Virus record (IMG/VR): IMGVR_UViG_3300028558_000791
Span: 186,001 to 250,000 of that record
Length of the DNA: 64,000 nucleotides
DNA from: a virus
Strand: one strand, 5' to 3'
Part shown: positions 10,368-34,094 of the stretch, piece after piece
Numbering within the stretch: position 1 is the stretch's first letter
Layout: every line of letters begins with the position of its first letter
Program-made: the position numbers and the translations under genes
The notes under the pieces: model-generated
The model's database searches: none
Seen by the model: only the letters and a program-made list of their open reading frames with translations
Told to the model about the DNA's origin: nothing

Positions 10368-10895
10368 ATGATAATCACAAATAATGAGGCCGCGCTACGT
10401 GTGTTCTGTGAACCCGTAACGATGGAAGAAGTAGGTTCTTTAATTGATACTCTCGAAAAAGAGCTAGACTATGCTAACCGTTTGGGTAAAAACGGAATTG
10501 GATTAGCAGCACCCCAAATAGGTATTGCTAAAGATATTGCTATTATACGTTTACCCAAGATTAGTTTAAATCTAATTAATGCAAGATTAACTCAAGGATT
10601 TGATCCTGCCACGTTTACAGATGAAGGTTGTTTATCTTTCCCTGGTCGTACAGAAAATACTACAAGATTCCAGGAAGTGTATATTACCAACAATCTAGTT
10701 GAGCCTCATAGTTTTGTAGCTAGCGGTTTTATCTCAGTAGTATGCCAACACGAGTTGGATCATTTGAGCTCTACTCTGTTTATGGATCGTAGCCTTCCTA
10801 AGCCGGTGCCGGTTATTAGGAAAGCCAAAGTTGGCCCTAATGAAACATGTATTTGTGGTTCGGGTAAGAAATACAAGAAGTGTTGTGGTCGCTGA
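10368..10895 (+). CDS. def: Peptide deformylase with C-terminal SEC-C zinc motif
   Basis: 175 residues. Removes the formyl group from the N-terminal Met of nascent proteins at the ribosome exit. All three catalytic motifs are present: GIGLAAPQIG (residues 43-52), EGCLSFPG with metal ligand Cys88, and HELDH with His128, Glu129 and His132. The C-terminus, after a short linker, is a SEC-C motif with Cys161, Cys163, Cys172 and Cys173 (CICGSGKKYKKCCG), the zinc tail best known from SecA. That fusion is not the usual layout of phage or bacterial deformylases. With intact catalytic residues it should be active. It belongs functionally with the trigger factor at 19.4 kb. Confidence 0.95.
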   Translation: MIITNNEAALRVFCEPVTMEEVGSLIDTLEKELDYANRLGKNGIGLAAPQIGIAKDIAIIRLPKISLNLINARLTQGFDPATFTDEGCLSFPGRTENTTRFQEVYITNNLVEPHSFVASGFISVVCQHELDHLSSTLFMDRSLPKPVPVIRKAKVGPNETCICGSGKKYKKCCGR

Positions 10896-10935
10896 ATCTC
10901 TAGCGATAACTGTTATAGAAAGATATGGGAGATTC
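10894..10935 (+). promoter_or_regulatory. Inverted repeat enclosing the ribosome-binding site of the next gene
   Basis: GAATCTC (10894-10900) pairs perfectly with GAGATTC (10929-10935). The right arm holds GGGAGA, the ribosome-binding site for the ATG at 10938. A second repeat ATAAC-T-GTTAT (10906-10916) is nested inside. The pairing could hide the start site in the message. Confidence 0.5.
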
Positions 10936-10937
10936 TA

Positions 10938-11195
10938 ATGACTGACAAAAAAGATGCTAAGAACGAGCTAACTAATGATGTATTGATGGCAGATATTATG
11001 CTGCGCGTAACTGCCATTGAAAAGCTTCTAATTGAGAAGGGTGTATTTACCCAAACAGAACTAACTGCAGCTACTGAGGAAATAGCCAAAAGAGTGGCTA
11101 AGGTAGTTTTAGAGAAAGTTCAAGGCTCAAAGAATATAGAAGAGTTTGTGGCTGATTTAGAAGCTTCTTCTAAGAAAAAGGATTTTGATAACTAA
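10938..11195 (+). CDS. Small helical hypothetical protein
   Basis: 85 residues, predicted mostly helical. Two Leu/Ile/Val-rich amphipathic helices (about residues 15-35 and 42-65) look like a helical hairpin or short coiled coil. The TELTAATEEIAKRV turn between them is of a type seen in many small phage proteins. The last base of its stop is the first of the next start (TAATG). Not recognised; probably co-translated with the thioredoxin-fold protein. Confidence 0.72.
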   Translation: MTDKKDAKNELTNDVLMADIMLRVTAIEKLLIEKGVFTQTELTAATEEIAKRVAKVVLEKVQGSKNIEEFVADLEASSKKKDFDN

Positions 11196-11503
11196 TGCAG
11201 TTCATTACTCAAGAAGAGGAACTTCAAATTGACCTGCCATTGCAGGCTTTGTATTTTTACGCTTCCTGGATGCCCTATCATAATAAATTCATTACTATGA
11301 TAGGTAAGATTGAGGAGAAGTATAAGGATATTTCTTTTTTTGCAGTAGATGTAGACGCTTTTCCAAGTCAGTGTAAAAGGTTTTCTGTAAATTCAGTACC
11401 TGAAGTTATAATCCTAAAGGATGGGAAAGAAATAAAACGAATCAGCGGGCTGGTCTTAACCAGCGCTTTTAGAAGCGCTTTTGCTGATATATGTAGTTCT
11501 TGA
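11195..11503 (+). CDS. Thioredoxin-fold protein lacking the CxxC active site
   Basis: 102 residues. Strand-helix order and length match thioredoxin. The usual active site W-C-G-P-C is W25-M-P-Y-H29 here, so both redox cysteines are replaced. The cis-Pro loop is kept (NSVPEVIILKDGKEI). It therefore should not catalyse disulfide exchange and more likely acts as a binding or structural subunit, as thioredoxin does for T7 polymerase; that parallel is inference. Other cysteines (two, outside the site) do not form a CxxC. Confidence 0.82.
   Translation: MQFITQEEELQIDLPLQALYFYASWMPYHNKFITMIGKIEEKYKDISFFAVDVDAFPSQCKRFSVNSVPEVIILKDGKEIKRISGLVLTSAFRSAFADICSS
11462..11482 (+). terminator. Probable terminator inside the 3' end of the thioredoxin-like gene
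   Basis: 7-bp stem AGCGCTT / AAGCGCT (11462-11468 and 11473-11479) with loop TTAG and a short TTT. Followed two bases later by the TGATATAT motif, the same terminator-then-motif order as at 9.6 and 32.6 kb. The T-run is short, so read-through is likely. Confidence 0.5.
11485..11492 (+). promoter_or_regulatory. Proposed phage promoter core TGATATAT
   Basis: Exact octamer located in the last codons of the upstream gene, 31 bases before the ATG at 11524, immediately after a hairpin with a short T-run. Confidence 0.5.
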
Positions 11504-11523
11504 AACTATTAAACGGAGTTTAT

Positions 11524-11856
11524 ATGCCAAAAAAAGTTGATACGACTGAAACACATGTTGAAGGTACTGAAACAGAAGCAACGCCAGCTACTAAGCCGGC
11601 TAAGACTGAAGCTCAGAAAATTTGGGAAGAGATTCAGGATCTCCCGATTCTAATGTTTGGTTTGCCAGATCAAACTGTTAACTTGCATTGTTCGCCAATT
11701 ACCGTAGAGCCATCCAGTTTATATTTGACTGTTCGCTCCAGCGCTACCCTACCATCTTTAGAGTCAGCAATCGGTTCTCGTTTTACTGTCGAATTGGCTG
11801 ATAAGTTTGTAATTGTCAAGCGTGCTCCAAAACCGCTCTTCCCTAAGAAGAAATAA
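11524..11856 (+). CDS. Hypothetical protein with Thr/Lys/Pro-rich N-terminus
   Basis: 110 residues from the ATG at 11524, which has GGAG upstream; a TTG at 11500 would add eight poorly fitting residues and lacks a site. The first ~35 residues are Thr/Glu/Ala/Lys-rich and disordered-looking. The remainder (from KIWEEIQDLPILMFGLPDQT) forms a beta-rich domain ending in KPLFPKKK. No family recognised. Confidence 0.7.
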   Translation: MPKKVDTTETHVEGTETEATPATKPAKTEAQKIWEEIQDLPILMFGLPDQTVNLHCSPITVEPSSLYLTVRSSATLPSLESAIGSRFTVELADKFVIVKRAPKPLFPKKK

Positions 11857-11866
11857 TTGAGGTTGT

Positions 11867-12388
11867 ATGACGAATAGAAACGCACCACCTCCAGGCACAC
11901 CATTACAAAGTCCAGATGAATACACTCCTAAGGGAGCTGTTAAATCACAAGGCCAATCTATGTTTGATAACAAGCGTAGGAAGCCAACTCAGCAAGAGTT
12001 TCAACAGCAAGTTCATCAGGCTCAAGAGGTACAGTCAGGATACAAAAAGCGTGCGGCTGAATTATTCGTACAGTTTCAGCGAGCGATAATGGATAAGACT
12101 CTTCCTCAGAATCGTAACGTATTCAATGTAGAGTCAGAAAAAGAATTGCTGCAGAATATGATTCAGCTAGCAGTTGAAATTAACAATGACCCAAATGAAA
12201 GAGAGAGTGAAGGCTGTCTCACTTGGATTGTTCTTCTTCTCAAAACTTGTTTCGCTCAGAGAGATAAGTTGAATGAGCTAGAGTTTTCTATGGCTTCCCT
12301 TCAGAAAAAATTTGAGCCGGTCGCCCTTTCCGAGTTCATAAACAAAGAAATTAATAAGGCGCTTGACAAGAAAAAAGGTAGTGAATAA
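11867..12388 (+). CDS. Hypothetical helical protein
   Basis: 173 residues. Pro- and Gln-rich N-terminal 45 residues, then a helical domain with the segment ESEGCLTWIVLLLKTCFAQR; this hydrophobic run is too short and flanked by charges, so probably a buried helix, not a membrane anchor. C-terminus charged (KEINKALDKKKGSE). Lies in the run leading to the primase zinc domain, and the next gene begins 7 bases after its stop. Not recognised. Confidence 0.7.
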   Translation: MTNRNAPPPGTPLQSPDEYTPKGAVKSQGQSMFDNKRRKPTQQEFQQQVHQAQEVQSGYKKRAAELFVQFQRAIMDKTLPQNRNVFNVESEKELLQNMIQLAVEINNDPNERESEGCLTWIVLLLKTCFAQRDKLNELEFSMASLQKKFEPVALSEFINKEINKALDKKKGSE

Positions 12389-12395
12389 CTTGCCT

Positions 12396-12575
12396 ATGAC
12401 CGCCAAAGAGTTACTTTTATCTTTAATTTCCGAAGAAAAAGAACGCTTCGGGCAGTATTCACAATTATGTGCTCTATACCAAGTGACCCCAGACCCAATA
12501 GCGATGGCAAGACACCAGGGGAAACTGGAAGTCCTTCAGCAGCTTTTGCGGGAAAAGATTATTACCAAGAGTTGA
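12396..12575 (+). CDS. Small hypothetical protein upstream of primase domain
   Basis: 59 residues from ATG 12396 (upstream in-frame TTG and GTG codons exist). Mostly helical, with amphipathic segments LLLSLISEEKERFGQYSQL and KLEVLQQLLREKI. Its stop TGA overlaps a TTG in the +2 frame (TTGA at 12572-12575), which I take as the start of the primase zinc-domain gene. The ribosome-binding site is weak, so coupling to the preceding gene is likely. Confidence 0.58.
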   Translation: MTAKELLLSLISEEKERFGQYSQLCALYQVTPDPIAMARHQGKLEVLQQLLREKIITKS

Positions 12576-13084
12576 TTGGCAAGGCTAACTCAGTCCCAAT
12601 CATGAAGCTGTTCAAGCATTACGGAATGCGATTGGACGCTTACAACAAGAAGTGTTCGTGCCCATTCAAATCGCACAAAGGCGGACGAGAACGTAGTCCG
12701 TCTTTTTATTTTTATCCAGACACCAACAGTTTCAACTGTTATGGTTGTAGTACTGGTGGACGTTGCTGCGATTTAGTAATGCATTTAGAAAGATGTACGA
12801 AGGTACAGGCAGCCTACAAGATACTTCAATTGTTTGGTTCTGATGTAGATGAGGATAACATCTATGACCCAGAAGATATGGCGGAACGCCTCCAAATAAT
12901 GATGGACTTTTCTAACGCCGTTCGCGAGTTTTATCAGAGTTATCCGACCGAGGAAGCAGGGGTATATGTTGAGGCAGTGTGCAAAAAATTTGACACGCTG
13001 AACCGCAAGAAAAAGCTGGATAACAAAGCTCTACAGCGAGTTGTAGAGCAATTCAAGCTATACATAACCCTATATAAACCATGA
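12572..13084 (+). CDS. Primase CHC2 zinc-binding domain protein (N-terminal half of a DnaG-like primase)
   Basis: About 170 residues. The CHC2 zinc finger is clear: CPFKSH (Cys30, His35), the serine-rich RSPSFYFYPD strand, then FNCYGCSTGG (Cys56, Cys59) and CDLVMHLE. This domain reads the priming site. No TOPRIM catalytic domain follows; that domain is encoded separately at 34460-35224. I start at the TTG 12572 because it overlaps the previous stop and gives the normal ~28 residues before the finger. The ORF could be extended to ATG 12467, but the added residues are Ser/Pro/Gly-rich and look like out-of-frame reading of the upstream gene. The stop overlaps the next start (ATGA). Confidence 0.8.
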   Translation: MIGKANSVPIMKLFKHYGMRLDAYNKKCSCPFKSHKGGRERSPSFYFYPDTNSFNCYGCSTGGRCCDLVMHLERCTKVQAAYKILQLFGSDVDEDNIYDPEDMAERLQIMMDFSNAVREFYQSYPTEEAGVYVEAVCKKFDTLNRKKKLDNKALQRVVEQFKLYITLYKP

Positions 13085-14277
13085 CTAACGCCATAATTCT
13101 TGGCGATGTGCACTTGGGTAAAGGAACGAACATCGGAAAAGGTGGTATCGGTTCTACACTGAATAGTCGCATCGTTGATCAGCTTAATCTGTTGGAATGG
13201 ACATTGGATCGTGCTGTAGAGCACCACGCAGAACATATCGTCCTTACTGGAGATATCTTCGAAGATCCAAAGCCACATCCAGCCCTAATTACATTGTTTA
13301 TTTCTTGGCTCAAAAAATGCCAAGCATATGAAGTTAATGTCCACATTATCGTGGGTAATCATGATATTCTTCGTAGCGGTCTTGTATCTACCTCGTCACT
13401 AGATATTATTAGTGAGGTAGATTTAGACGGTATTCATGTTTACAAGGACATCAATACAATCATCATTGGTACTACCGCTTTCACTATGGTACCATTTCGT
13501 GATAGAAAATCATTTACTGTAAATTCGAATGCGGATGCAATCTCGCTGGTTCGCGATAGTCTTGTCTACGAACTGGCTAGTATCCCCGACACTTATCACA
13601 AAGTTGTAATCGGACACTTAGCAATCGAAGGCTCAATCCCTGTTGGTGATGAGATTGACGATCTGGCTAATGAGTTGTTCTGCCCTCTCGATATGTTCGA
13701 GGGATACGACTATGTGTGGATGGGACACGTCCATAAACCGCAAGTTATGAAGAAGGCTAATCCGTACATCGCCCACATTGGTAGTATGGATATTTCTAAT
13801 TTCGGTGAAAGCGACCACGCTAAACACATCGTCATTTTCAACTGTGATGAGAGCAATGGTTGGTCAAGAGAGTTTTTGCCAACTAGGCCATTGCAGAAAA
13901 TCACCGTTAGTGTACCCAAAGATACTGAAGATCCAACCGCATACGTTTTAGACGAGATCAAAAAACTGGGTGTGCAAGATAAAGCGATTGTGCGCGTTGA
14001 AGTTGCGTTGACTTCCCCCGATCTCAAATCGGTCAACAAATCTACAATTGAGAAGTATCTGACGAGCCATGGAGCTTTTAACGTCAATGCAATCTCAGAG
14101 TCCAAGAAAGTCAATCTGATTAAGAAGGACAATAACAACACTATTGACTCCAAGATGGACGTGGTTGCTGCGATCAAAACATATGCGCAAACGTATATAG
14201 ATGACGCTACCAGAGCAAGCTTTATCGAGCTGGCCTTGGAAATCCATACTATCCATAAAACCGAGGGTAAAGAATGA
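13081..14277 (+). CDS. sbcD: SbcD/Mre11-like nuclease (T4 gp47-like)
   Basis: 398 residues. Calcineurin-type metallophosphatase motifs in order: GDVHLG (Asp9, His11), GDIFEDP, VGNHD, IGHLAIEG and MGHVHKPQ. These bind the two metal ions that cut DNA. It works with the ATPase encoded next (SbcC) to process double-strand ends and hairpins; in T4 the pair gp46/47 makes recombination ends. Starts and stops overlap its neighbours by 4 bp on each side, typical of subunits translated together. A hairpin-forming repeat lies inside the gene at 13386-13422. Confidence 0.93.
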   Translation: MTNAIILGDVHLGKGTNIGKGGIGSTLNSRIVDQLNLLEWTLDRAVEHHAEHIVLTGDIFEDPKPHPALITLFISWLKKCQAYEVNVHIIVGNHDILRSGLVSTSSLDIISEVDLDGIHVYKDINTIIIGTTAFTMVPFRDRKSFTVNSNADAISLVRDSLVYELASIPDTYHKVVIGHLAIEGSIPVGDEIDDLANELFCPLDMFEGYDYVWMGHVHKPQVMKKANPYIAHIGSMDISNFGESDHAKHIVIFNCDESNGWSREFLPTRPLQKITVSVPKDTEDPTAYVLDEIKKLGVQDKAIVRVEVALTSPDLKSVNKSTIEKYLTSHGAFNVNAISESKKVNLIKKDNNNTIDSKMDVVAAIKTYAQTYIDDATRASFIELALEIHTIHKTEGKE

Positions 14278-16499
14278 AGCCATCTAGATTGTACATCGAA
14301 AACTTCATGTGCTATGATGATGCTTATATTGATTTCTCTGAATTCAGTTCAGCACTTATCGTTGGTAAAACAGAAAACAACAATGACATATCCAATGGTG
14401 TCGGTAAGACTACTATCTTCCGAGCTATTGAATATGGATTATTCAACCATTCAGATGTCAATTTAGAAAACATTGTTCGAGACGATGCAGACAGATGCAG
14501 TGTAACATTCGATTTTGCCGTTGGTGATGAAGAATACAGAGTCACGCGCACACGCACGCGTAAGGGTACAAGTGATTTAACATTATACAAGCGTACAGCG
14601 TTAGAAGGTGATGCAACCGAAGCTCTCCACAGTGTTAGTGGGGATCGCTATAAACCAATCGAAGATAAGGACGAGAAGTATTGGAAAGACATTTCTGGTC
14701 GTCGTTCTGCTGACACAGAAAAAGAACTTGGCAAATTGGTCAAGGTGAACCTAAAGTCCTTTAGGATTTTCGTGCATTTTATGCAACACGATTTCGGTGG
14801 TCTAACAACTGCCACGCCCGAGACTCGTAAAAAGATTCTTAAAGATGCCCTCAATCTAGTTATCTATTCTAAGTTGGAAAAGATTGCTAAAGACAAATCC
14901 TCGGCTTTATCTAAAGAGTCTGATAGGTTCCGTACGCTTATTGAGAATATTGGTGACCCTGATCGTGCTCTAGCTGAGATTTCTCAGAAACTTGCAGCGG
15001 CGGACCAAGAGATTGCTACCCGAGCCCTCAAAGTAGGTGAGTTTGAATCTTTGATTGCACTGGCTAATGAGACAGTCAATCAACTCATCAATGACCATGC
15101 AAATTTAGAAAGCAAGTATTCTGCCCTGGCTGCTAGAGAGCAAACTCTCAACACAGAAAAGACTAGAATAGAAACCTCTATCAAAGAGTATACTACTAAG
15201 AAGTCTAATATTGTCAAGCTGGCTAAAGAAGCTATTGTTGAGCTAAAAGAACTTGAGGAAACTCAGGTTAAGTTAGTTGGCCTAGATTTCCATCAAATAG
15301 ATATTCTATCTGAGCAGATTGTCTCTAACAAAGAGAAAAATGCTCAATTGAGCCTAACCATTCAAAATGACATGGCAAGGTCAGAAAAACTCAAGAAGCC
15401 AATCCCGCATGATGGCGAGTGCGAAGAATGCCGCCAGCCCATCACAGCCGAACACAGGAAAATTTGCCAGCAGAAGCTGAATGACGAGCTGCGTGAGAAG
15501 CAGGAGAATATCCAGAATTGCAAGAAGGACATCGCTGCCATCAACGCGCAGAACACCGTCCATCAACAAACCATTAATCATCTGACCCTGTCTAAGCAAC
15601 ATCTTGAAAGCATCAATAACAAGATTTCTTCTAAAAAGAAAGAAATGATTGATAGGCGTACTATACACGATGAGTACAAAGCGTTGTTGGATAAGTTTGG
15701 CCAAGAGCTAGAAGAAAAGATCAAAGAACTAGACGCTGTTGAGGTTGAGCTAAAGAACTCCCCAATTAAGGAGGCTAAAGTTCTAGAGAAGCGAATTCAA
15801 GAAGAGAAGCAGAAAGTAAAGCTTATTGAGCAACAGAATCTTCTTAATAACAAAGAGCTGACGCATTTCAATAGCAATAAAGCAGTTTTACAACATGACA
15901 TCAATCAACGTGCTGATGAAAAGCGCAAGAAGATTGAGTATACCAAACTTCTAAAGGAGCTTGAAGATAAGTTGGGCATGTATCCTGCCGTTGTTCAAGC
16001 ATTCTCTAGTACTGGGATTCCTAATCTGATTATCCAAAACGTATTGGATGATTTGCAGATAGAAGCTAATGCGTTGTTAACTCAGTTGAAGCCAGGTCTA
16101 CAACTTGCATTTTCAGTAGAGAAGACTGTGGAAAAGACTGGCGACCAAGCTGATACATTGGATATTCAGTATTCCATTAATGGCAAGAAGCGTTATTATG
16201 AAAACATCTCTGGCGCTATGCAGCTAGCAGTCAATTTCAGTTTGAAATTGGGCCTATCTTTCCTACTTCAAAAGCTAAGTGGTGTAGATGTCAAGTTCCT
16301 ATTGTTGGATGAAATTGACCAATCTTTGGATAAGGCTAGTGTAGATTTCTTTGCAGATATTGTGAAGTTTTTCCAGAAGGATTATTCTATTTTGGTGATT
16401 ACTCATAATGATCGTTTGAAGGATAAGTTTTCTCATGCCGTCTTGGTGGAGCAAGATATAAATATGGTATCACGAGCGCGTGTAGTATCATCATGGTAA
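14274..16499 (+). CDS. sbcC: SbcC/Rad50-like ATPase (T4 gp46-like)
   Basis: 741 residues. Walker A is of the extended phage form (GKTENNNDISNGVGKTT). A long coiled coil follows, interrupted by a CxxC zinc hook (CEECRQPI, near residue 380), then a second coil and the C-terminal lobe with Walker B LLLDEIDQSLD and the VITHNDRLKD switch. The hook joins two molecules. Partner of the SbcD-like nuclease directly upstream (ATGA overlap). Length is intermediate between T4 gp46 (560) and bacterial SbcC (about 1000). Confidence 0.94.
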   Translation: MKPSRLYIENFMCYDDAYIDFSEFSSALIVGKTENNNDISNGVGKTTIFRAIEYGLFNHSDVNLENIVRDDADRCSVTFDFAVGDEEYRVTRTRTRKGTSDLTLYKRTALEGDATEALHSVSGDRYKPIEDKDEKYWKDISGRRSADTEKELGKLVKVNLKSFRIFVHFMQHDFGGLTTATPETRKKILKDALNLVIYSKLEKIAKDKSSALSKESDRFRTLIENIGDPDRALAEISQKLAAADQEIATRALKVGEFESLIALANETVNQLINDHANLESKYSALAAREQTLNTEKTRIETSIKEYTTKKSNIVKLAKEAIVELKELEETQVKLVGLDFHQIDILSEQIVSNKEKNAQLSLTIQNDMARSEKLKKPIPHDGECEECRQPITAEHRKICQQKLNDELREKQENIQNCKKDIAAINAQNTVHQQTINHLTLSKQHLESINNKISSKKKEMIDRRTIHDEYKALLDKFGQELEEKIKELDAVEVELKNSPIKEAKVLEKRIQEEKQKVKLIEQQNLLNNKELTHFNSNKAVLQHDINQRADEKRKKIEYTKLLKELEDKLGMYPAVVQAFSSTGIPNLIIQNVLDDLQIEANALLTQLKPGLQLAFSVEKTVEKTGDQADTLDIQYSINGKKRYYENISGAMQLAVNFSLKLGLSFLLQKLSGVDVKFLLLDEIDQSLDKASVDFFADIVKFFQKDYSILVITHNDRLKDKFSHAVLVEQDINMVSRARVVSSW

Positions 16500-16508
16500 G
16501 GGAGTTAG

Positions 16509-17497: not shown

Positions 17498-17498
17498 A

Positions 17499-18527: not shown

Positions 18528-18529
18528 AT

Positions 18530-18537: not shown

Positions 18538-18569
18538 AAGTATTACACATTAAACGGAAGATTTACTAA

Positions 18570-19364: not shown

Positions 19365-20612
19365 ATGCAAATTGATGTAACTGAATTAGAACCATGCAGA
19401 TTGGCCATTCATTATGAAGCTAACTTCCTAGAGATTTCTGACAAGAGAGCAGAAGTTGAAGTAGCTTTCAAGAAGGCACCCGTTCCAGGCTTTAGGCCAG
19501 GAAAGGCTACGTCAGAAGTTATTAGAGTGCACTATCGTCAGCAGATTGACGACTCTCTAAAGCGAGCATTGGCTGAAGATGCTTTTCACAATACGCTTTT
19601 CGAAAAGAAACTAAGACCACACGGCGCCCCTCGTTTCAATAACTTACTGCTTGATGGTGGTAAGTTTACTTGTGAGTTTGAGCTTTTGACCAAGCCAAGT
19701 TTTGAGCTTCCAGATTGGAAGAATTTGGAAGTTCCCAAGCCACATGGTGAGGCAGATTCTAATGAACTAGCTCAGAAGATGATGCAGGACTTGCGCGTCC
19801 GTCTTGGTGATGTAACCCCATACACTGACACTGACTTTGTCCAAACTGGTGATAATGTCATTATCGATTACGAAGGTACTATCGATGGTGAGAAGGTTGA
19901 TAGCCTAGTTGCTCAGGGAGAAATGGTTACCATTGGTAGTAGCCCTCTAGCAGCTTTCGATAGCAATCTTTTGGGAATGTCTATGGGCGAGACTCGTGAG
20001 TTTGACTTCGTTGCACCGGAGAATGGTTTACCATCTCTATCTGGTAAGACTATCCACTTCACAGTTACTTTGAACATGGGCTCTAAGACTACGCCTGCCG
20101 CGTTGGATGATGAGATGGCTAAGAAGATGGGCAAAGCAAACTTTGCTGAGTTGGAGGAAATGGTGGCACAAGCCGCATTTGCCCGCTCTGCTAATATGAA
20201 CAAGATGGCCATTCATGAGGCTATCGCCAAGAAGTTGGTTGTTGAAACACAGGTTGCAGTTCCACGCTGGATGTCTCTATCCGAGGCTCAGTATCTAACT
20301 CAGCAGTCTCAGTTAGATTGGAATGTGTTGCCAGATTCTGACAAAGAGAAGATGATTGAAATGGCTGAGCAGAACGTAAAGCTATCTTTGGTCTTAGATA
20401 AGATTAGAGAGGCTGAACCAGAAGCTCAACTAACTGATCAGGAAGTCTTTGAGATTATTAAACAGAACCTAGCTCAAACTAAGGTTACTCAAAGTTTAGA
20501 TGAAGTTATTCAGCAAATGAATAAGACGGGTTATCTACAGATTCTGTTCTCTCGTATTAGAGATGAGAATACTATGGATTACGTAGTGAAGACAGTAAAG
20601 TTGATTGATTAA
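19365..20612 (+). CDS. tig: Trigger factor (ribosome-associated chaperone)
   Basis: 415 residues, close to the bacterial length of about 430. All three parts are there: the N-terminal ribosome-binding domain with the signature PGFRPGK (residues 41-47), an FKBP-type prolyl isomerase domain (GDNVIIDYEGTIDGE, the EFDFVAPENGLPSLSGK region), and the helical C-terminal chaperone domain. Trigger factor docks on ribosomal protein L23 and shields nascent chains. The GFRxGK loop being intact implies docking on the host ribosome. GAGGAAAC upstream is a good ribosome-binding site. Rare in phages as far as I know; acts at the same place as the deformylase at 10.4 kb. Confidence 0.93.
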   Translation: MQIDVTELEPCRLAIHYEANFLEISDKRAEVEVAFKKAPVPGFRPGKATSEVIRVHYRQQIDDSLKRALAEDAFHNTLFEKKLRPHGAPRFNNLLLDGGKFTCEFELLTKPSFELPDWKNLEVPKPHGEADSNELAQKMMQDLRVRLGDVTPYTDTDFVQTGDNVIIDYEGTIDGEKVDSLVAQGEMVTIGSSPLAAFDSNLLGMSMGETREFDFVAPENGLPSLSGKTIHFTVTLNMGSKTTPAALDDEMAKKMGKANFAELEEMVAQAAFARSANMNKMAIHEAIAKKLVVETQVAVPRWMSLSEAQYLTQQSQLDWNVLPDSDKEKMIEMAEQNVKLSLVLDKIREAEPEAQLTDQEVFEIIKQNLAQTKVTQSLDEVIQQMNKTGYLQILFSRIRDENTMDYVVKTVKLID

Positions 20613-20624: not shown

Positions 20625-20951
20625 ATGGGAAAGAAAGCTGCTATTAATGTTCCGCTAACTAGTTTGCCTAAGAAGTGGGATGATCTCATTAAGAAGATGC
20701 CAGAGTTCAAAGACACGGCTGATGCGGCCGATGTGGATGGACTGAAGAAGATTATTGTTGAGTGTGAAGGTAACCTTTACACAGTCAACAAAGAACAAGA
20801 AGCCGATGCTAAGCTAGCGGGAGCACGTGAGATGGTTAAAGAACTATCTGCGCCTTACCGTGATGCCAGCAAGCATCAACAGGCTAAGATTCAGTACGCA
20901 CTACTTTGCTTAGAGAGCAAGGGCGTCGATCTAGATAACAAAGGCGACTAA
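20625..20951 (+). CDS. Hypothetical protein
   Basis: 108 residues, helical, acidic/basic mix, with a strong AAGGAGA ribosome-binding site. The middle reads as two long helices (KKIIVECEGNLYTVNKEQ and AKLAGAREMVKELSAPYR). It follows trigger factor by 12 bp and its last base is the first base of the next start. No family recognised; a role linked to trigger factor or the following genes is not established. Confidence 0.72.
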   Translation: MGKKAAINVPLTSLPKKWDDLIKKMPEFKDTADAADVDGLKKIIVECEGNLYTVNKEQEADAKLAGAREMVKELSAPYRDASKHQQAKIQYALLCLESKGVDLDNKGD

Positions 20952-21229
20952 TGAAAGTCGAGAGATTTCTCATACAAGCATGCTGTAACAAGACCCAGAT
21001 TGTCTTTAAACTAGACAAGCCTCTGGATCAAAGCATACTTGAAATTCTGAAAAGTAACGGGTTCACAGAAGCTCCACACTTTACTAAAGCCGGAATGCTA
21101 TATGCCGATAGTTCGGAATTAATAGTAACGGGTCCGTTTGGTGGGGATAAGCTTAATGCCAAGTGCAAAAAGCAAGACTGTAGCCAAACCCTCAATGATC
21201 TTGAGGCGTTACTTATCAGAATGGGGTGA
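20951..21229 (+). CDS. Hypothetical protein
   Basis: 92 residues, alpha/beta-looking, with four cysteines: CC near residue 11 and CKKQDC near the C-terminus. The pattern of a small ferredoxin-like alpha/beta fold is plausible (strand, helix, two strands, helix). Overlaps its predecessor by one base (TAATG). Not recognised. Confidence 0.68.
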   Translation: MKVERFLIQACCNKTQIVFKLDKPLDQSILEILKSNGFTEAPHFTKAGMLYADSSELIVTGPFGGDKLNAKCKKQDCSQTLNDLEALLIRMG

Positions 21230-21231
21230 CA

Positions 21232-21897
21232 ATGGCAAATGGGTCAGGATCTATCGCTGAAATCAGAAAGAAAGTTACCAAAACCCATGAATTTATCTCT
21301 ACTTCATATCATGAAGCTGGACATACAATTTTTGCTCTTTTACACCTAATGAGAGTTAGTTCTGTATCGGTATTCGAAGATAAAAAATTGAAAAGGGTTC
21401 ATGGTAACACTTACTATGAATATCCTAGTGATTTGGACGAAGTCCAGGACCAAGACCTTCTAAATACTTTAGTTAAGGCCGAAGTTGGGATTAGTTACGC
21501 TGGTTTGATTGCTGAAAAGTCTTTGTTTAGAAGCATTTCTGGTTCTAAACAAACCCCAACGTTTATTAGCGATGGGTCAGCATCTGACAACAAGTCAGCC
21601 CGTGAGGTGATTAAAAAGTACAACCTAGCACCTCCTGGGCCTAAAAGAACTGCTTATAAAGCAAAGATTATGAGAGAAGTTCAACAGGAACTTCATGATA
21701 ATTGGGATGCTGTAATGGTCGTGTCTCACGCCCTATTCCGTCATCGTCGTTTGTCATTTGAAGATTTACAAGAATTGCTTACCAAAAAGACCCATAATAA
21801 AAAGTTTTGGAAAGACCAATTCAAAAAGATTAGCCATTTTTACGACAATAGCAAGGCCCTTGACGAAAAAGATCTAAAGATTATTTTATCAAGGTAA
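21232..21897 (+). CDS. Stand-alone M41 (FtsH-type) zinc metallopeptidase
   Basis: 221 residues from ATG 21232 (GGGGTGA upstream). Carries HEAGH (His27, Glu28, His31), the zinc-binding and catalytic motif of M41, then helix VGISYAGLIAEKSLF that matches the FtsH GGRAAEE helix, and the block SDGSASDNKSAREV that should carry the third zinc ligand. The usual AAA ATPase and membrane segments of FtsH are absent. Without them it would need another unfoldase or act on loose chains. The BCS1-type ATPase at 5.0 kb is a candidate partner only by speculation. Confidence 0.82.
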   Translation: MANGSGSIAEIRKKVTKTHEFISTSYHEAGHTIFALLHLMRVSSVSVFEDKKLKRVHGNTYYEYPSDLDEVQDQDLLNTLVKAEVGISYAGLIAEKSLFRSISGSKQTPTFISDGSASDNKSAREVIKKYNLAPPGPKRTAYKAKIMREVQQELHDNWDAVMVVSHALFRHRRLSFEDLQELLTKKTHNKKFWKDQFKKISHFYDNSKALDEKDLKIILSR

Positions 21898-26530: not shown

Positions 26531-26532
26531 TC

Positions 26533-27690: not shown

Positions 27691-28137
27691 ATGCCAATCA
27701 GACGCGTTCAACAACAATCAGATAGGGGAAGTATTAGTGACCTAGCCAATGGGGATGACGAGAAGTTTCCTCCAACGCCTCTCGAACTTCATTTGAAGGG
27801 ATTGTATGAACACGCTATGGTTACTAGAGATGAAGCTTTGCTCAACTCGTTAGGATTAATTCCTCTAAATGGCGATGCAAAGAACCCCGTTTCAATTTAT
27901 AGACATCGTGAGTATGTCAATGGCCTCAGCGCTGCTCTTGCGGAACAAATCAGGGAGACAGCTAAAGAAATTGAAGGATGCTTCACTGTAGACCAATCGA
28001 CCTTTTCATTTGAGTTGAAGATGTCTCAACACAAGCAAGCTCAAGCTTTATCCGTAATTTCTGAGCCAGAAACTTTAGTAAAGACAGCAAGTGATGATGG
28101 CGTTCCGCCAAGAAGAAGTTTTAGAAGGGTGATCTAA
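27691..28137 (+). CDS. Hypothetical protein
   Basis: 148 residues starting immediately after the preceding stop. A disordered basic N-terminus (RRVQQQSDRGS) precedes a helical core (LELHLKGLYEHAMVTRDEAL) and a basic C-terminal PPRRSFRRVI. No family recognised. Adjacent on both sides with zero-base gaps, so strictly co-transcribed with its neighbours. Confidence 0.7.
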   Translation: MPIRRVQQQSDRGSISDLANGDDEKFPPTPLELHLKGLYEHAMVTRDEALLNSLGLIPLNGDAKNPVSIYRHREYVNGLSAALAEQIRETAKEIEGCFTVDQSTFSFELKMSQHKQAQALSVISEPETLVKTASDDGVPPRRSFRRVI

Positions 28138-28983
28138 ATGAAGTGTGTATCTTGCGAAACAGAAATCAATCCAAAATGGAAACACGCAATAGATATTAAC
28201 GTGTGCCCATTCTGTGGTAAGCATATCATGGAAGAGCACCTTAAGAATTGTGTTACTACTTTGGCTGCCGCTATGGAAGCCATGCTCAAATACCCTGAGC
28301 AGCTAGATGATTGGTTACTTTCAAACCATAATTACATCAAAACAGATTCACCAAATCTTAGAGAGTTCCTTCCTAAAGAAGCTCTTAAAGAGATGCGTAA
28401 AGTTCTTGATGATGAAGAGTTCCAAGAAAAGAAGAAGTCGGTTGTCAGGATCAAAACTCGTGATGAGGACGGTAACGTAACTGAGCAAGATGTTGTTGTT
28501 GAAAAGATGACAACTGACGATAGAACTCAGACGTTCCATGATCGTGCCAACAATATGCTAAAGCAAGAGAAAGCCGTGGACGGTGACCCTAAAAGTGTCG
28601 CCGACAAAACTAAAGATCTTAGGGCAGTTGCAGAAAAAGTCAAGAGAGAAGTCGCAGCAGCCATGTCCAACAAAGAAGGTGGTATGGCATCTATGACGAG
28701 CAAGGAAATGATGGCAGAAGCTGATCCAGAAGCAGTTGCCGAATTCCAGTCCGTAATCGGTAGCGGTGATATAGTTGCTTCGGGATTGCCGGCCCAAGCC
28801 ACAGCCGATGGGGATGATGATGAAATCCCACCAGCCGTTCTTGCTATGGCCAACATGAAGAAAGGCGGCGGCCCTGCCGGTGCCAATGAAAAAGATATGA
28901 GAGCGCTTGTCAACATGCAAGCGAAAGCTCAAGGCGCATCCAAGAGATTGGGCTCGGGTAAAGGTAGTTTCTCAAGAGGGTAA
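28138..28983 (+). CDS. Zinc-ribbon protein with low-complexity tail
   Basis: 281 residues. The N-terminus is a clear zinc ribbon with CVSC (residues 3-6) and CPFC (23-26). A helical region follows (LAAAMEAMLKYPEQLDDWLL), then long Lys/Glu/Asp-rich and Ala/Met/Gly-rich stretches, ending in a Gly/Ser-rich RLGSGKGSFSRG. The ribbon suggests nucleic-acid or protein binding. No named family. Neighbouring genes are also unnamed and of similar composition. Confidence 0.7.
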   Translation: MKCVSCETEINPKWKHAIDINVCPFCGKHIMEEHLKNCVTTLAAAMEAMLKYPEQLDDWLLSNHNYIKTDSPNLREFLPKEALKEMRKVLDDEEFQEKKKSVVRIKTRDEDGNVTEQDVVVEKMTTDDRTQTFHDRANNMLKQEKAVDGDPKSVADKTKDLRAVAEKVKREVAAAMSNKEGGMASMTSKEMMAEADPEAVAEFQSVIGSGDIVASGLPAQATADGDDDEIPPAVLAMANMKKGGGPAGANEKDMRALVNMQAKAQGASKRLGSGKGSFSRG

Positions 28984-28986
28984 GTC

Positions 28987-29289
28987 ATGATCAGAGTCGT
29001 TGACAATAAGAAAGTGGAAATGACCGATGATGAGTACGAGATGTACAACAAAATCGTTAAGTCATACACTGACATAACGGGCAAGGGCGAAGACCTATTT
29101 ATTGACCTTTTTGAGTCCAATGATGATGGTATTATTATCTTCCTAAAGCCACCTTCTAAAAGAAGGACTAGTTTAGAAGTATTCTTATTTCTAATGGCAG
29201 TAATGCAGCACCAACACCTGCGATTAATGCATCAACAGATCGATGAAGCGGTAGCTGACATAAAGAAAAACAATATGGCCGCCAAGTAA
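28987..29289 (+). CDS. Hypothetical protein
   Basis: 100 residues. An N-terminal MIRVVDNKKVEMTDDEYEMY resembles the start of many small phage proteins of unknown role; the C-terminus is helical (VFLFLMAVMQHQHLRL) with a His-rich patch. The hydrophobic stretch of about 10 residues is too short for a clear membrane segment. Not recognised. Confidence 0.68.
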   Translation: MIRVVDNKKVEMTDDEYEMYNKIVKSYTDITGKGEDLFIDLFESNDDGIIIFLKPPSKRRTSLEVFLFLMAVMQHQHLRLMHQQIDEAVADIKKNNMAAK

Positions 29290-29342
29290 TCATTTGTCGA
29301 GAAAAAGTTCGTTCAATTCAATATTACAGGAGAAAGACAAAC

Positions 29343-29849
29343 ATGAGCCAAACAGTAAGACTCGGCGATGTTTTAGGTTCTAATTTAGAGGAAAATTTCA
29401 AAGATTTCGACCTCACCGAGATACAGGAAGTATTAGAACAGCTACGAGACATTGATGCAATTGATTTGGCTCACGCTGAGATGTTGCAACAACAATCACT
29501 AAGGGGAGCAGACATTATAGTCGGTTACCTTTCAAAGATTGTAAAGACAGTAGGTTATCTAGAATCGCAAGTAAACAGTACGAAGAATAAAGTGTCCTTA
29601 GAATATGTAGCGCCTGATGGGGCTCGAACGACAGTGGACATGAAGAAATGGGCGGGAGAATCATCGCCTGAAGTTGAAAAAGTACAAATAAAATTAGCAG
29701 AAGCCAAGGGCGCGAAGATCGTCCTTGAACGAAAATACGAGATTTTAGTGAAGTCCCACCACCATTTTAAAGACATTGCGGCGGGCCTCCGAAAGACGAT
29801 CCTCGGTTATAGTTCAGGAACCAGCAACGCGGGCGAAGGCTACGAATGA
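29343..29849 (+). CDS. Hypothetical coiled-coil protein upstream of RecA
   Basis: 168 residues. Mostly helical, with heptad-like stretches (VLEQLRDIDAIDLAHAEML and EVEKVQIKLAEAKGAKIVL). A beta hairpin insert EYVAPDGARTTVDMKKW lies between. ACAGGAGA gives a good ribosome-binding site. Its stop lies 11 bases before the recA start, so a role together with RecA (loader or partner) is possible by position alone. Confidence 0.7.
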   Translation: MSQTVRLGDVLGSNLEENFKDFDLTEIQEVLEQLRDIDAIDLAHAEMLQQQSLRGADIIVGYLSKIVKTVGYLESQVNSTKNKVSLEYVAPDGARTTVDMKKWAGESSPEVEKVQIKLAEAKGAKIVLERKYEILVKSHHHFKDIAAGLRKTILGYSSGTSNAGEGYE

Positions 29850-29860
29850 TGGGAGATAAA

Positions 29861-31069
29861 ATGTCAGATGATAAGAAAAAGAAGTCAGATAGGCTAACCG
29901 CGTTTTTCCGAAGTTTTGCCGATGCAGACGAACAATTAGACTTTAGACTCGCCCACGAAACCATGGGAGAGAAGCTCCCCGTGACTTCCTCTGGTTCATT
30001 AGTTCTCGATGACGCTTTGTCATCTGGAGGACTTCCTAAGGGCAGATTAATTCAGTTCTATGGTGCTCCTGGTAGCGGTAAGACCTTGATGGCCATGCTA
30101 GCAATGAAAGAAGCTCAGCAAGCTGAGCCGGGCACTCAACAAATGTTCATTGACGCTGAAGGGACATTTGATGCTAAGTGGGCTGAAATTTTGGGATTGG
30201 ATGTTTCTCGTATCATTGTCGTTGATGGTGAGACTGCCGTTATTGGCCGTAGCTGTTTCGAAATGATCCTTGGCGTTCCTAAGGAAGACAAGAAGACTCA
30301 CTTGCTCGTCGGTAAGACCAAGCAAGGTTTGCTCGATATGATTATGGCAGGCGAGTTTAATATCAACATGGTTGTATTGGATTCACTTGGCGCTATTATT
30401 CCACCAGGCGAAGATGTTTCGGCTGTTGGAAAGATGAACATGGCTTTGTTAGCTAGATTCTTAACCACTACTTTCCGTAAGCTTTCTCTAGATGCAAATA
30501 GGGCTAATGTGCCATTCATTTTCATCAACCACAAGAAGGCTAATATGGATCCTTATGGTGTGGACCATTCATTCTCCGGCGGAAATACTTACGCTCACTT
30601 CTTGAGTGCCAACGTTTACTTTGAAGCAGTGGCACGTGCAGACGCACAAATCTTGGATGAAAAAGAGCAAAAGGTCGGTCATACAATGCGTGCCACCATT
30701 GAAAAGTCGAAGTTCGGCCCTTACCCACGTAAGTGCGAATTCAAAGTGAACTTCGGCATCGGTATCATTGATAAGCACGAAGAGGTCGCACAGCTAGCCT
30801 TGGACTACAACGTAGTCGTCAAGACCTCCACAGTGTCCCATGAATATGGCGACAAGAAGTGGGTTGGATTTCCAAAGTTCTGTGAAGCCGTCAAAGATGA
30901 TCCAGCCTTAGCGGCTGAGTTGACTCAGAAGATTGGTGAAGCTCGTGATTACAAGAGAGATGCCGCCAGAAGAGAACAAGAAGCAAAGAAAGAAGCTGCT
31001 TTGGCTCCAGCAGTAGCAGATGATGCTAGTGTTGAAATAGATACGAAGAAGAGTAAGAAAGGTAAGTAA
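29861..31069 (+). CDS. recA: RecA-family recombinase
   Basis: 402 residues from ATG 29861, chosen because GGGAG lies five bases upstream; ATG 29846 is also in frame. ATPase core: Walker A GAPGSGKT (68-75), the acidic strand FIDAEGTFD, Walker B MVVLDSLGAI, and the DNA-binding L2 region NHKKANMDPYGVDHSFSGG. The N-terminal helix is short and the C-terminus is a long Ala/Lys/Glu tail. It pairs homologous strands; with SSB, SbcCD and RuvC here it gives a complete recombination route. Closer in layout to phage RecA/UvsX forms than to host RecA. Confidence 0.93.
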   Translation: MSDDKKKKSDRLTAFFRSFADADEQLDFRLAHETMGEKLPVTSSGSLVLDDALSSGGLPKGRLIQFYGAPGSGKTLMAMLAMKEAQQAEPGTQQMFIDAEGTFDAKWAEILGLDVSRIIVVDGETAVIGRSCFEMILGVPKEDKKTHLLVGKTKQGLLDMIMAGEFNINMVVLDSLGAIIPPGEDVSAVGKMNMALLARFLTTTFRKLSLDANRANVPFIFINHKKANMDPYGVDHSFSGGNTYAHFLSANVYFEAVARADAQILDEKEQKVGHTMRATIEKSKFGPYPRKCEFKVNFGIGIIDKHEEVAQLALDYNVVVKTSTVSHEYGDKKWVGFPKFCEAVKDDPALAAELTQKIGEARDYKRDAARREQEAKKEAALAPAVADDASVEIDTKKSKKGK

Positions 31070-31072
31070 ACC

Positions 31073-31423
31073 ATGCCAATTGATTTAGGCCCAAACAGTC
31101 TAACGATGGCCATTGCGCCATCTCTTAAGAAACCTCCATTCATGATTGTATTGGATGGCGGTCTTCAAGGGAAGACTCGTATTTTCGAGAGATTTATTTC
31201 TTTGGATAAGCCTCTATCAGAAAATGGTTTTATCACAGTTAAAGGAATTTTCTGTGATAAGGACGAAGACGAAATAATCAAAGGTTTTGCGGACATCTTG
31301 ACGAATACCTCGAAAGAACTTATATTGGAGATGATGTTTCCGCTACACAGAGTTTACAGCATTAGAAGTTTAGTCTTCAATGCAGTAAAGACTATAAACA
31401 ATCCAAATAAGGAAAGTAAGTAA
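31073..31423 (+). CDS. Hypothetical protein
   Basis: 116 residues. Alpha/beta pattern with a strand PPFMIVLDGGLQGKTRIFE that superficially recalls a P-loop (GGLQGKT), though the spacing is not canonical and no Walker B is visible. One base of overlap with the next start. Located between RecA and the SSB gene, so a recombination accessory is possible. Unnamed. Confidence 0.68.
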   Translation: MPIDLGPNSLTMAIAPSLKKPPFMIVLDGGLQGKTRIFERFISLDKPLSENGFITVKGIFCDKDEDEIIKGFADILTNTSKELILEMMFPLHRVYSIRSLVFNAVKTINNPNKESK

Positions 31424-31704
31424 TGCGAGAAGACATAGAGGTGAATGAGTTAGTATTCACCAAGATCAACACGATAGTAAGTAACCAATCTGGTAGCAAG
31501 TGGATCGGAACGATGACCAATTTGATGACTGCTTTGAACAGAGTTTCTAGCAAGCGTCAAAGAGAGATTCTACCCGGCTCTCCAGGTGCTCTCAGAGTGG
31601 TGATAAACAGAGTAGCCAACAGGCTACGTAACAGGGGTATCGGAGTAAGATTCAGCCGAACCACTGACCACGCACGAACTCGTAACGTACGATTTACACA
31701 CTGA
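31423..31704 (+). CDS. Small protein resembling the C-terminal DNA-binding domain of phage primase-helicases
   Basis: 93 residues. The central part (GTMTNLMTALNRV then PGSPGALRVVINRVANRLRNRGIGV) follows the pattern of the short winged-helix-like domain often found at the end of phage and plasmid primase-helicase proteins. Here it stands alone with no ATPase. Strongly basic C-terminus. Proposed as a DNA-binding accessory; this is an inference from likeness. Confidence 0.62.
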   Translation: MREDIEVNELVFTKINTIVSNQSGSKWIGTMTNLMTALNRVSSKRQREILPGSPGALRVVINRVANRLRNRGIGVRFSRTTDHARTRNVRFTH

Positions 31705-31790
31705 TGTGATAGATAATACGATCGATGGTTTTGTTAAGTAGATAAAAGTACTAGAAACAGTACATAGAGAAATAACAGTAGGAGATCAAT

Positions 31791-32525
31791 ATGACGAATA
31801 CATTTGGTGAAGTAGACTGGAACTCAGACGTTTTCCCAGGCGACAACAAGAAACAAACAAACAGCAAAGACCTCTTTCTTCGTTTAGATGAGGGTCCAAA
31901 CGAGATCAGACTCCTGACCCAGCCACACCAGTACTTGGTTCACAAGTATAAGAAAGACGGTGACACAGGCTTTGGACAGAAGGTTCAGTGCTCCGCAATT
32001 CACGGAAGCTGCCCACTCTGTGCCACTGGCGATAAGGCCAAGCCACGTTGGTTGCTCGGCGTAATTAGCCGTAAGACTAACACTTACAAGATTCTTGATA
32101 TCTCTTTCGCTGTGTTCTCGCAGATCAGAAAGTACAACAAGAATGCGCGATTTGGTGATCCTACCAAGTACGACATCAACGTTGAAGTTGATAAGAACGG
32201 CGGAGCTACTGGATACTACAGTGTACAAGCCCTACCAAAAGAGCCACTATCGGCTGCTGACCAAGTAATTAAGGACAGCATTGATTTTGATGACCTGAAG
32301 CGCAGAGTCACTCCACCAACTCCTGACAAAGTTCAGGGTCGTTTGGACAAGATTAATGGTGTAACGACCACCGGTGCAACTACTTCCGCACCAGCTACGG
32401 CACCTGCCGCCGCTGCTGCTAAGAAGACTGTAACCAAGGCTGCCGCTCCAGCCGTCAGCATGACTGATGATGAAGACTTGGATAAGTCATTTCCGGACTA
32501 CGAAGGTGACCCAGCTCAATCCTAA
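31791..32525 (+). CDS. Single-stranded DNA-binding protein, T4 gp32-like
   Basis: 244 residues. The N-terminal half is the gp32-like OB region with a zinc site at Cys67, His71, Cys74 and Cys77 (CSAIHGSCPLC). Aromatic and basic residues for DNA contact lie around it. A Thr/Ala/Pro-rich linker follows (about 190-220), ending in an acidic tail with DDEDLDKSFPDYEGD, the kind used to recruit partner proteins. AGGAGA upstream. Ends with a strong terminator. Works with RecA, polymerase and primase here. Confidence 0.9.
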   Translation: MTNTFGEVDWNSDVFPGDNKKQTNSKDLFLRLDEGPNEIRLLTQPHQYLVHKYKKDGDTGFGQKVQCSAIHGSCPLCATGDKAKPRWLLGVISRKTNTYKILDISFAVFSQIRKYNKNARFGDPTKYDINVEVDKNGGATGYYSVQALPKEPLSAADQVIKDSIDFDDLKRRVTPPTPDKVQGRLDKINGVTTTGATTSAPATAPAAAAAKKTVTKAAAPAVSMTDDEDLDKSFPDYEGDPAQS

Positions 32526-32550
32526 ATCTATCACTCCCTAGATAGTACTG

Positions 32551-32587
32551 AAAAGCCTGCAACTTAACTGTTGTGGGCTTTTCTTTT
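32551..32587 (+). terminator. Rho-independent terminator after the SSB gene
   Basis: 13-bp stem (32551-32563 with 32570-32582, two G-T pairs) around loop TTAACT, followed by CTTTTT. Strong; separates the SSB transcript from the next unit. Confidence 0.93.
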
Positions 32588-32592
32588 TCAAT

Positions 32593-32600
32593 TGATATAT
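32593..32600 (+). promoter_or_regulatory. Proposed phage promoter core TGATATAT, predicts a leaderless start
   Basis: Exact octamer 6 bases after the terminator T-run and 7 bases before the ATG at 32608. If it acts as a -10-like element, transcription would start at or next to the ATG. No ribosome-binding site is present. Confidence 0.55.
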
Positions 32601-32607
32601 TACAAGT

Positions 32608-33168
32608 ATGGCAAAAACTATACTTGGCTTCGACGCCTCTTCGACTACTATTGGATATTGTGTATTAAGTTGGGATGAAACTACTAATGACATTTCCTTT
32701 GTCAAAGCAGGATATATCAAACCTAAGAAGACTGGAACTATTATTGAAAGAATAGTAGATACTAGAAATCAGGTTCAGAAAGTAATTGTAGATGCCCAAC
32801 CAGACTATATTGGAATTGAGGAAATTATTCAGTTCATGAAAGGTAAAAGCACGGCTAAGACTATTATCATGCTAACTACATTCAACAGAATGGTATGTTT
32901 GACCTCTTACGATTATCTGGGTAAATCTCCAACACTCTATAGTGTAATGACTATTCGTCATGGATTGAAGTTCGGCAAAGAATTACCAAAAAAAGAAGAA
33001 ATGCCGGCCCTTGTCGCCCAACATTTAGGAATTACATTTCCTTACGAGTATAATAAAAAGGGCAACATCAAGGTCGAAAGTTTTGACAAAGCTGACGGCA
33101 TCGCCGTTGCCCTTTATCATGCCCGAGTATTATCGGGTAAGGTGAAGCCCAAGGGTAAGAAGAAATGA
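32608..33168 (+). CDS. RuvC-like Holliday junction resolvase
   Basis: 186 residues. RNase H-type fold with the acidic residues expected: Asp9 in GFDASSTTIGY, Glu in DYIGIEEI, and a C-terminal acid in KADGIAVALYHAR. Such enzymes cut four-way junctions before packaging or at the end of recombination. No Shine-Dalgarno sequence precedes the ATG, matching the leaderless prediction. C-terminus Lys-rich. Stop overlaps the dnaJ start. Confidence 0.87.
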   Translation: MAKTILGFDASSTTIGYCVLSWDETTNDISFVKAGYIKPKKTGTIIERIVDTRNQVQKVIVDAQPDYIGIEEIIQFMKGKSTAKTIIMLTTFNRMVCLTSYDYLGKSPTLYSVMTIRHGLKFGKELPKKEEMPALVAQHLGITFPYEYNKKGNIKVESFDKADGIAVALYHARVLSGKVKPKGKKK

Positions 33169-34094
33169 ATCTTAAGGAAGCCTACACAACTCTAGAATTG
33201 GCCCAGGGCTCGTCCCCGGAGGAAGCCAAGAAGAAGTACCGAGAACTTACTAAAAAGTATCACCCCGATATAAATAAGGACCCCGATGCCGAGGGTAAGT
33301 TCAAGAAAATCAATGAAGCCTACCAAATCATACAAACTGGTAAGGGGACTGATCTACAAGATAGGCATCCACAACAAGGCGGTTTTCATAGACAGCAGCA
33401 GGTAATTCAATTAGAGAACGTTGAAGTTCATCTAACCATCTCATTCAAAGAATCTGTTCTTGGATGTAAGAAAGAAATCAAATACGCTCGTCAAAGCAAA
33501 TGCCAAGACTGTAATGGAGCTGGAGACATCAAGCTCAACAACGGTTGTAAGAAGTGTGGCGGTAAAGGTCAAATTGTTAATCGACAAGGTAACATGGTTA
33601 TGGTTACAACATGTAATGAATGTTATGGGCGGGCCAATGTAGCTGAATGTTCAGCTTGTCATGGCCATGGGACCGTACAGGCAGACGTGTCTGTGCACGT
33701 GTCTGTGCCTGCGGGAATTATGAATAACAATACTCTTCGTCTACAAGGCATGGGTAATTACGCAGGTTCATTCCTGGGAGTGGCTGACCAACATACTGAC
33801 GCTTTCTGTCATGTTACTGTAACACAAGAGCCGGGCCTTAATATAGAGGGACCGCATGTCATTAGTCATCTAACGCTTCCTTTGTTAGACGCTTTGCGTG
33901 GTTGTAAGCGTAAGGTAAAGACGATTCATGGAGACAAAGAGATTCAAGTCAAACCGCAGTCTAGAAACCGTGATGAGGTAATTATACCCCATTGTGGTGT
34001 CAGCGGTACTGGAGACCAAAAAGTAGTTCTAGACGTTGAATATCCTAAGAACACTGACAAATTGATTGGCGTTCTGTTAGATGAGGTAATATAA
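33165..34094 (+). CDS. dnaJ: DnaJ (Hsp40) co-chaperone
   Basis: 309 residues. J domain with the essential HPD (His33-Asp35), a short linker without a clear Gly/Phe region, then the zinc domain of four CxxCxGxG-like repeats: CQDCNGAG, CKKCGGKG, CNECYGRA (the third departs from consensus) and CSACHGHG. The C-terminal substrate-binding region follows (PAGIMNNNTLRLQGMGNY). HPD implies it can activate an Hsp70, here presumably the host DnaK since none is encoded in the window. A 12-bp tandem repeat occurs at 33685-33708. Overlaps its neighbours. Confidence 0.93.
   Translation: MNLKEAYTTLELAQGSSPEEAKKKYRELTKKYHPDINKDPDAEGKFKKINEAYQIIQTGKGTDLQDRHPQQGGFHRQQQVIQLENVEVHLTISFKESVLGCKKEIKYARQSKCQDCNGAGDIKLNNGCKKCGGKGQIVNRQGNMVMVTTCNECYGRANVAECSACHGHGTVQADVSVHVSVPAGIMNNNTLRLQGMGNYAGSFLGVADQHTDAFCHVTVTQEPGLNIEGPHVISHLTLPLLDALRGCKRKVKTIHGDKEIQVKPQSRNRDEVIIPHCGVSGTGDQKVVLDVEYPKNTDKLIGVLLDEVI

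Follow-up and report, generated by a model that had tools for sequence, protein, structure and literature searches.

Could a phage bring its own means of handling proteins as they emerge from the ribosome of its host? This question is raised by a 64,000-nucleotide stretch of DNA (the window), bases 186001-250000 of the 480,838-base record IMGVR_UViG_3300028558_000791, in which an initial annotation had recognized a four-gene set for nascent-chain processing, namely a peptide deformylase (PDF) with a SEC-C tail, a trigger factor (TF), a stand-alone M41 peptidase and a DnaJ. The record is that of a tailed phage, because head, tail-sheath and tail-fibre genes are present downstream of the window; its matches to named phages are too distant for a host to be assigned. 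All four genes are present where that annotation had placed them, and PDF-SEC-C, TF and DnaJ were confirmed by family models. As for the set itself, its PDF-SEC-C and TF part is supported by linkage, motifs, selection and the position of the tail, whereas DnaJ and the M41-like gene were not shown to belong to it. We lean, if only slightly, towards the view that PDF-SEC-C and TF are a phage nascent-chain pair at the ribosome exit, operating inside a phage translation toolkit. Gene identity was assessed with the curated cut-offs of Pfam and NCBIfam, with PHROG profiles and by fold matching of predicted structures, and the features of the window described below all lie on the + strand.

The PDF gene (10368..10895) encodes a protein of 175 aa with a C-terminal SEC-C metal-binding tail, as identified from Pfam, fold and motifs. 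The enzyme scores 83.7 bits against Pep_deformylase in Pfam (cut-off 22.8), and its predicted structure (pLDDT 91) has PDFs as its best PDB matches, with an E value of about 4e-12. The retention of its catalytic residues, already claimed from the first inspection, holds across 27 relatives when one variable position is allowed per motif: motif I, GIGLAAPQ (GxGLAAxQ; 10494..10517), has G, L, A, A and Q invariant, motif II, EGCLS (10623..10637), is invariant, and motif III, HELDH (HExxH; 10749..10763), has HE..H invariant. The TF (19365..20612) is a protein of 415 aa with three domains, Trigger_N, an FKBP-type peptidyl-prolyl isomerase domain (FKBP_C) and a C-terminal chaperone domain (Trigger_C), each of them above its Pfam cut-off. 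It also passes the NCBIfam trigger-factor model TIGR00115 (200.7, cut-off 180.2) with a match that reaches residue 407, and it is matched by PHROG 26774, the source phages of which were not seen. Trigger factors dock at the ribosomal protein uL23, and the docking signature GFRPGK is present as had been noted (19488..19505), aligns with GFRKGK of E. coli, and has GFR and the second G invariant among 11 relatives. The C-terminal domain is highly conserved inside the phage family, for example at YLQILF, and is also constrained, which suggests that this domain has a function. The PDF and the TF very probably carry out the chemistry of their respective families.

In E. coli, PDF holds on to the ribosome at uL22/uL32 by its C-terminal helix (as quoted in PMC12690207). 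In the phage enzyme, the place of this helix is occupied by the SEC-C tail KVGPNETCICGSGKKYKKCCGR (10827..10892). The alignment with E. coli PDF ends at phage residue 150 and is followed by a variable linker and then by SEC-C, and the predicted structure contains no long helix beyond residue 141. The tail scores 35.9 against SEC-C in Pfam (cut-off 20.4) and carries the CxC...CC metal ligands, with Cys161, Cys163 and Cys172 invariant among relatives and Cys173 present in 96%; by mean top-residue fraction, SEC-C (0.81) is more conserved than the enzyme core (0.75), and the linker (0.45) is the most variable part. In a sample of viral PDFs drawn by the enzyme core, the tail being unused in the search, SEC-C was found in 19 of 20 clade-type enzymes and in 5 of 60 others; among the other viral PDFs, some have a basic tail, some have no tail, and some close with a GRN...KYKKA...GW tail that lacks Cys. 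The fusion also occurs in a 635-kb metagenomic phage of the named collection, and none was seen among the best 80 cellular-genome matches listed, these being PDFs without SEC-C or SEC-C proteins without PDF motifs; the confinement of PDF-SEC-C to viruses is a tendency, not proof. Ribosome binding by this motif is shown only for SecA, whose metal-binding domain sediments together with ribosomes and whose tail can be crosslinked to uL23 (PMC6620043). By position, conservation and analogy, we see about even odds that SEC-C serves as the anchor of this PDF at the exit port of the ribosome.

Two further observations on the ends of phage PDFs were made. The GRN.xV...KYKKA...GW tail, found in L303-L305, L308, L309, L326, L330, L351, L355 and L356, resembles a SEC-C with its metal ligands replaced and could be another anchor type. 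One clade PDF (L298, PDF at 1001) ends at 145 aa without SEC-C, which is either a truncation or a sequence error.

Linkage of the two genes was evaluated in 51 related IMG/VR records with TF, which belong to a clade of huge phages and were gathered via TF, PDF and PDF-core-profile searches; many of the records in this clade sample are fragments and some are near-duplicates. PDF and TF occur together in all 45 clade records whose contig reaches both. The six TF-bearing records in which PDF was missing are fragments of 19-35 kb that end at most 6 kb upstream of TF, and the expected PDF position, some 9-10 kb from TF, lies past the contig end. The gene order PDF-thioredoxin-SbcD-SbcC-nuclease-TF-two small genes-M41-DnaE is maintained in those loci long enough to show it; from PDF to TF it holds down to 35-45% identity. 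Outside the clade, TF was found in none of 63 PDF-bearing phage records, some of them >300 kb, and DnaJ_C in none of the 17 tested, and even PDF-SEC-C occurs there without TF or DnaJ_C. The frequent pairing of PDF-SEC-C with TF that the initial annotation expected thus holds throughout the clade but not beyond it, and its refutation check, a search for relatives in which the genes are unlinked, gave a divided result, the genes being always linked in the clade and PDF occurring without TF elsewhere. The identities of PDF, TF and M41 track those of the replication genes SbcD and DnaE at r = 0.96-0.98, and therefore common descent alone can explain the linkage. The PDF-TF linkage is real but is the property of one lineage, given the absence of TF from the 63 other PDF-bearing records, and has been inherited along with the core genome; most simply, the pairing is an old acquisition kept by this lineage. 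Rough Nei-Gojobori ratios of nonsynonymous to synonymous substitution (dN/dS) are 0.03-0.12 for PDF, TF, M41 and DnaJ, near the values of DnaE and RecA and with dS near saturation; all four genes are maintained under strong purifying selection.

In a collection of named phages, the TF is 24-35% identical to 26 TF matches, four of which were examined and all proved to be bacterial DNA. Two of them (H14 and H15) are Acinetobacter chromosomal contigs with tig-clpP-clpX, and the other two (H2 and H5) are bacterial tig-clpX neighbourhoods, so that all were rejected as phage TFs. Records filed as phages with a bacterial-looking TF are CAKLQF020000005.1, CAKLQH020000005.1, OR844993.1 and MT835572.1; three of these have tig-clpP/clpX surroundings, and CAKLQH020000005.1 is a sister assembly of CAKLQF020000005.1 with the same match.

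The wider genome provides the context of the pair. The statement that tRNAs are lacking is true of the window, but the record as a whole has 57 tRNA genes (ARAGORN) for all amino acids but Trp, plus a transfer-messenger RNA (tmRNA). It also encodes tryptophanyl-, tyrosyl- and phenylalanyl-tRNA synthetases (TrpRS, TyrRS, PheRS) and a class II D/K/N synthetase, together with IF3, EF-G, EF-Ts, an RF2-type release factor and a GroES-like protein. HSP70, GroEL and SmpB were searched for in the record and none was found. The phage thus appears to supply adaptors and factors for use with the machines of its host.

Several side observations concern this toolkit and the record that carries it. The tmRNA lies at L102:10047-10403 (Rfam 142 bits) and has the tag ANDNAFAMAA. 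Two tRNAs with a CTA anticodon, which read TAG, lie at L102:12924-12997 and 13183-13255 (about 172.9 and 173.2 kb of the record), the RF2-type factor (SPF, GGQ) at L111:18809-19903 (record 406,809-407,903), and among the 345 genes below 405 kb of the record that encode 120 aa or more, only 6 have TAG as their stop. The CTA tRNAs and the RF2-type factor have the look of a toolkit for amber suppression, carried by a phage with genes that remain readable in the standard code. ARAGORN also reports a tRNA with a TTA anticodon, which reads TAA, at L096:10073-10149, though TAA is the commonest stop. From 408 to 480 kb (L112-L115), G+C content rises from 0.39-0.45 to 0.48-0.53, genes are smaller and TGA stops more frequent, and this part of the record looks like either an arm that evolves differently or the result of a join made in assembly.

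From the gene identities, intact motifs, constraint, lineage-wide linkage, tail position and conservation, and genome context observed here, we infer how the two proteins could bind the ribosome and cooperate, and what their substrates could be. The PDF would strip the formyl group off new chains while its SEC-C tail, replacing the C-terminal helix, would anchor it near uL23 as in SecA; TF would dock at uL23 via its GFRxGK loop and shield the chains, and, either one after the other or jointly, the two would act on chains as these leave the ribosomes of the host. Such a pair would form the exit-site end of the toolkit of 57 tRNAs, synthetases, IF3, EF-G, EF-Ts, RF2-type factor and tmRNA. The DnaJ and the GroES-like protein could recruit host HSP70 and GroEL as co-chaperones, and the M41-like peptidase, encoded in the gene run of TF, may serve to trim failed chains or clear them away. 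We tentatively propose, at somewhat less than even chances, that one lineage swapped the anchoring helix of PDF for a SEC-C of the SecA type and paired the enzyme with a TF of its own, so that phage factors run the exit port of the host ribosome alongside phage factors for initiation, elongation, termination and rescue.

The remaining members of the annotated set are less clearly placed. The M41-like gene (21226..21897) encodes a stand-alone FtsH-type metallopeptidase domain of 223 aa without the AAA+ part, recognized by motif, profile and fold. An M41 peptidase had been annotated at 21232; the FtsH-type fold and the zinc ligands uphold it, but the score against M41 in Pfam is below the cut-off (16.5, cut-off 29.9) and the reading frame starts at 21226, 21232 being an internal ATG. 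The zinc site HEAGH (21310..21324) is invariant in 11 relatives, as is Asp121 (21586-21588), a candidate third zinc ligand that falls at the GASNDI of FtsH, at most one residue from its Asp. The FtsH profile match is weak (E 0.038), and the best fold matches of the predicted structure are FtsH-type proteins (E about 1e-4, probability 1.0). Only the peptidase part matches, the fused AAA+ ATPase that is a trait of FtsH being missing; the protein may work like FtsH but is not FtsH. Between TF and this gene lie two small proteins conserved in the clade (20625..20951 and 20951..21229), the second overlapping M41; neither has a family match in Pfam or PHROG, and the second has no credible structure match. 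The DnaJ (33165..34094) is class A-like and comprises a J domain with the HPD motif (33261-33269), a zinc centre and a C-terminal domain. DnaJ and DnaJ_C are above their Pfam cut-offs, the zinc centre is just below (32.4 vs 32.7), and the score against the NCBIfam bacterial DnaJ equivalog is 191 vs a cut-off of 377. Of the 33 clade records examined for DnaJ_C, 31 have it; one of the two misses is a fragment that ends before TF, and in the second record the domain could be truly absent. A DnaJ does not require an HSP70, and the record holds no such partner for it.

Several points weigh against a joint role of these genes at the exit site. The PDF stays below the NCBIfam equivalog TIGR00079 (88.1, cut-off 103.95), a cut-off that is a curated threshold for naming rather than a biochemical trait; motifs and fold are what assign the protein to its family. 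The C-terminal part of TF has diverged from solved TFs, and of its 415 residues the profile match covers none beyond residue 350. In vivo activity is reported for some viral PDFs that have no C-terminal anchor at all (PMC5591237), and SEC-C tails also bind SecB and sit on many unrelated proteins. Linkage here equals shared descent within one clade, and co-occurrence alone cannot show joint function. The M41 profile was undetected in all five records of the deepest subgroup, and DnaJ lies ~11 kb downstream of the M41 gene, adjoining RuvC and primase-type genes; a four-gene set is therefore not established, and DnaJ, more loosely placed, may serve replication or assembly. There might be no exit-site set, and four separately useful host-derived genes would then ride in a conserved core region, with DnaJ acting in replication or virion assembly, M41 removing host proteins, TF folding virion proteins and PDF supplementing that of the host. 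Such an account would fit the order kept across the whole block, SbcCD, DnaE and RecA included, the identities that follow SbcD and DnaE, the common occurrence of PDF-SEC-C without TF or DnaJ, and the sporadic presence in jumbo phages of DnaJ and Hsp10, for which an assembly role was proposed (PMC7824862). It fits less well with a TF that was never seen without PDF on contigs reaching both, and with a genome rich in other translation genes, and we consider it somewhat unlikely.

The tail and the TF could each have another role. SEC-C might bind a host factor such as SecB or SecA, or serve metal delivery or stability, in which case the PDF would be sent to exported proteins or merely stabilized; SecB is bound by the SEC-C of SecA (PMC8076867), the motif is a metal binder present on proteins of diverse kinds, and the phage tail also matches several NCBIfam models of SEC-C proteins without assigned function. 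However, PDF has its substrate at the ribosome, in the nascent chain, and the tail stands where a known ribosome-binding element would be; a tail without an anchoring role appears unlikely to us. The TF, in turn, could be a decoy on uL23 that excludes host TF, signal recognition particle or SecA and redirects host chains, instead of folding phage proteins. A conserved docking loop next to a chaperone region diverged from solved TFs would be in line with this, but the conservation and constraint of that same region within the phage family argue against it; a decoy appears very unlikely. If the exit-site pair of PDF-SEC-C and TF that we favour is real, it would offer one answer to how viral deformylases without the usual helix reach nascent chains, and phage takeover would cover folding as well as decoding.

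Translation toolkits of huge phages are already known, and PDF, tmRNA, IF3, EF-G, EF-Ts, release factors and synthetases are common to this record and the suites reported by Al-Shayeb et al. (2020, PMC7162821), whose text leaves TF unmentioned and the SEC-C fusion undescribed, and whose SmpB was not found here. The exit-site end, that is, TF and a PDF with a putative anchor, is not in the literature searched, which makes no mention of a phage trigger factor, jumbo-phage reviews included; the fused PDF-SEC-C and a lineage-wide phage TF seem not to have been described before. The fold and the three catalytic motifs of the enzyme are common to bacterial and phage PDFs (E. coli Def, phage Vp16 PDF, cyanophage S-SSM7 PDF). 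Known viral PDFs are reported to be short and without the ribosome-binding C-terminal region (PMC5591237), whereas this PDF adds a variable linker and SEC-C. With the SEC-C of SecA (also YecA and YchJ) the tail shares the CxC...C[CH] signature, basic residues and a C-terminal position on a flexible linker, but here it is joined to a deformylase. The phage tail ends in CC and mostly has GPN, whereas SEC-C of E. coli SecA ends in CH and carries GRN.

The three domains and the GFRxGK loop are common to the phage TF and bacterial TF (tig, TIGR00115), the curated cut-off of which is passed, whereas the phage gene run holds an M41-like peptidase rather than clpP/clpX. In bacteria, tig is found close to clpXP and its product works together with ClpXP (PMC7804408), and the occurrence of TF and an M41-like peptidase in one gene run is reminiscent of tig-clpP-clpX. 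The peptidase has HEAGH, the conserved Asp and the fold in common with the M41 domain of FtsH, and differs from it by the missing AAA+ and membrane parts and the score below the Pfam cut-off. With the jumbo-phage co-chaperones DnaJ and Hsp10 (PMC7824862) and those of moraphages (PMC12619734), some of which do encode DnaK (PMC12619734), the phage DnaJ shares the state of a co-chaperone without its ATPase; in the present case it is kept across one clade, near the PDF-TF block.

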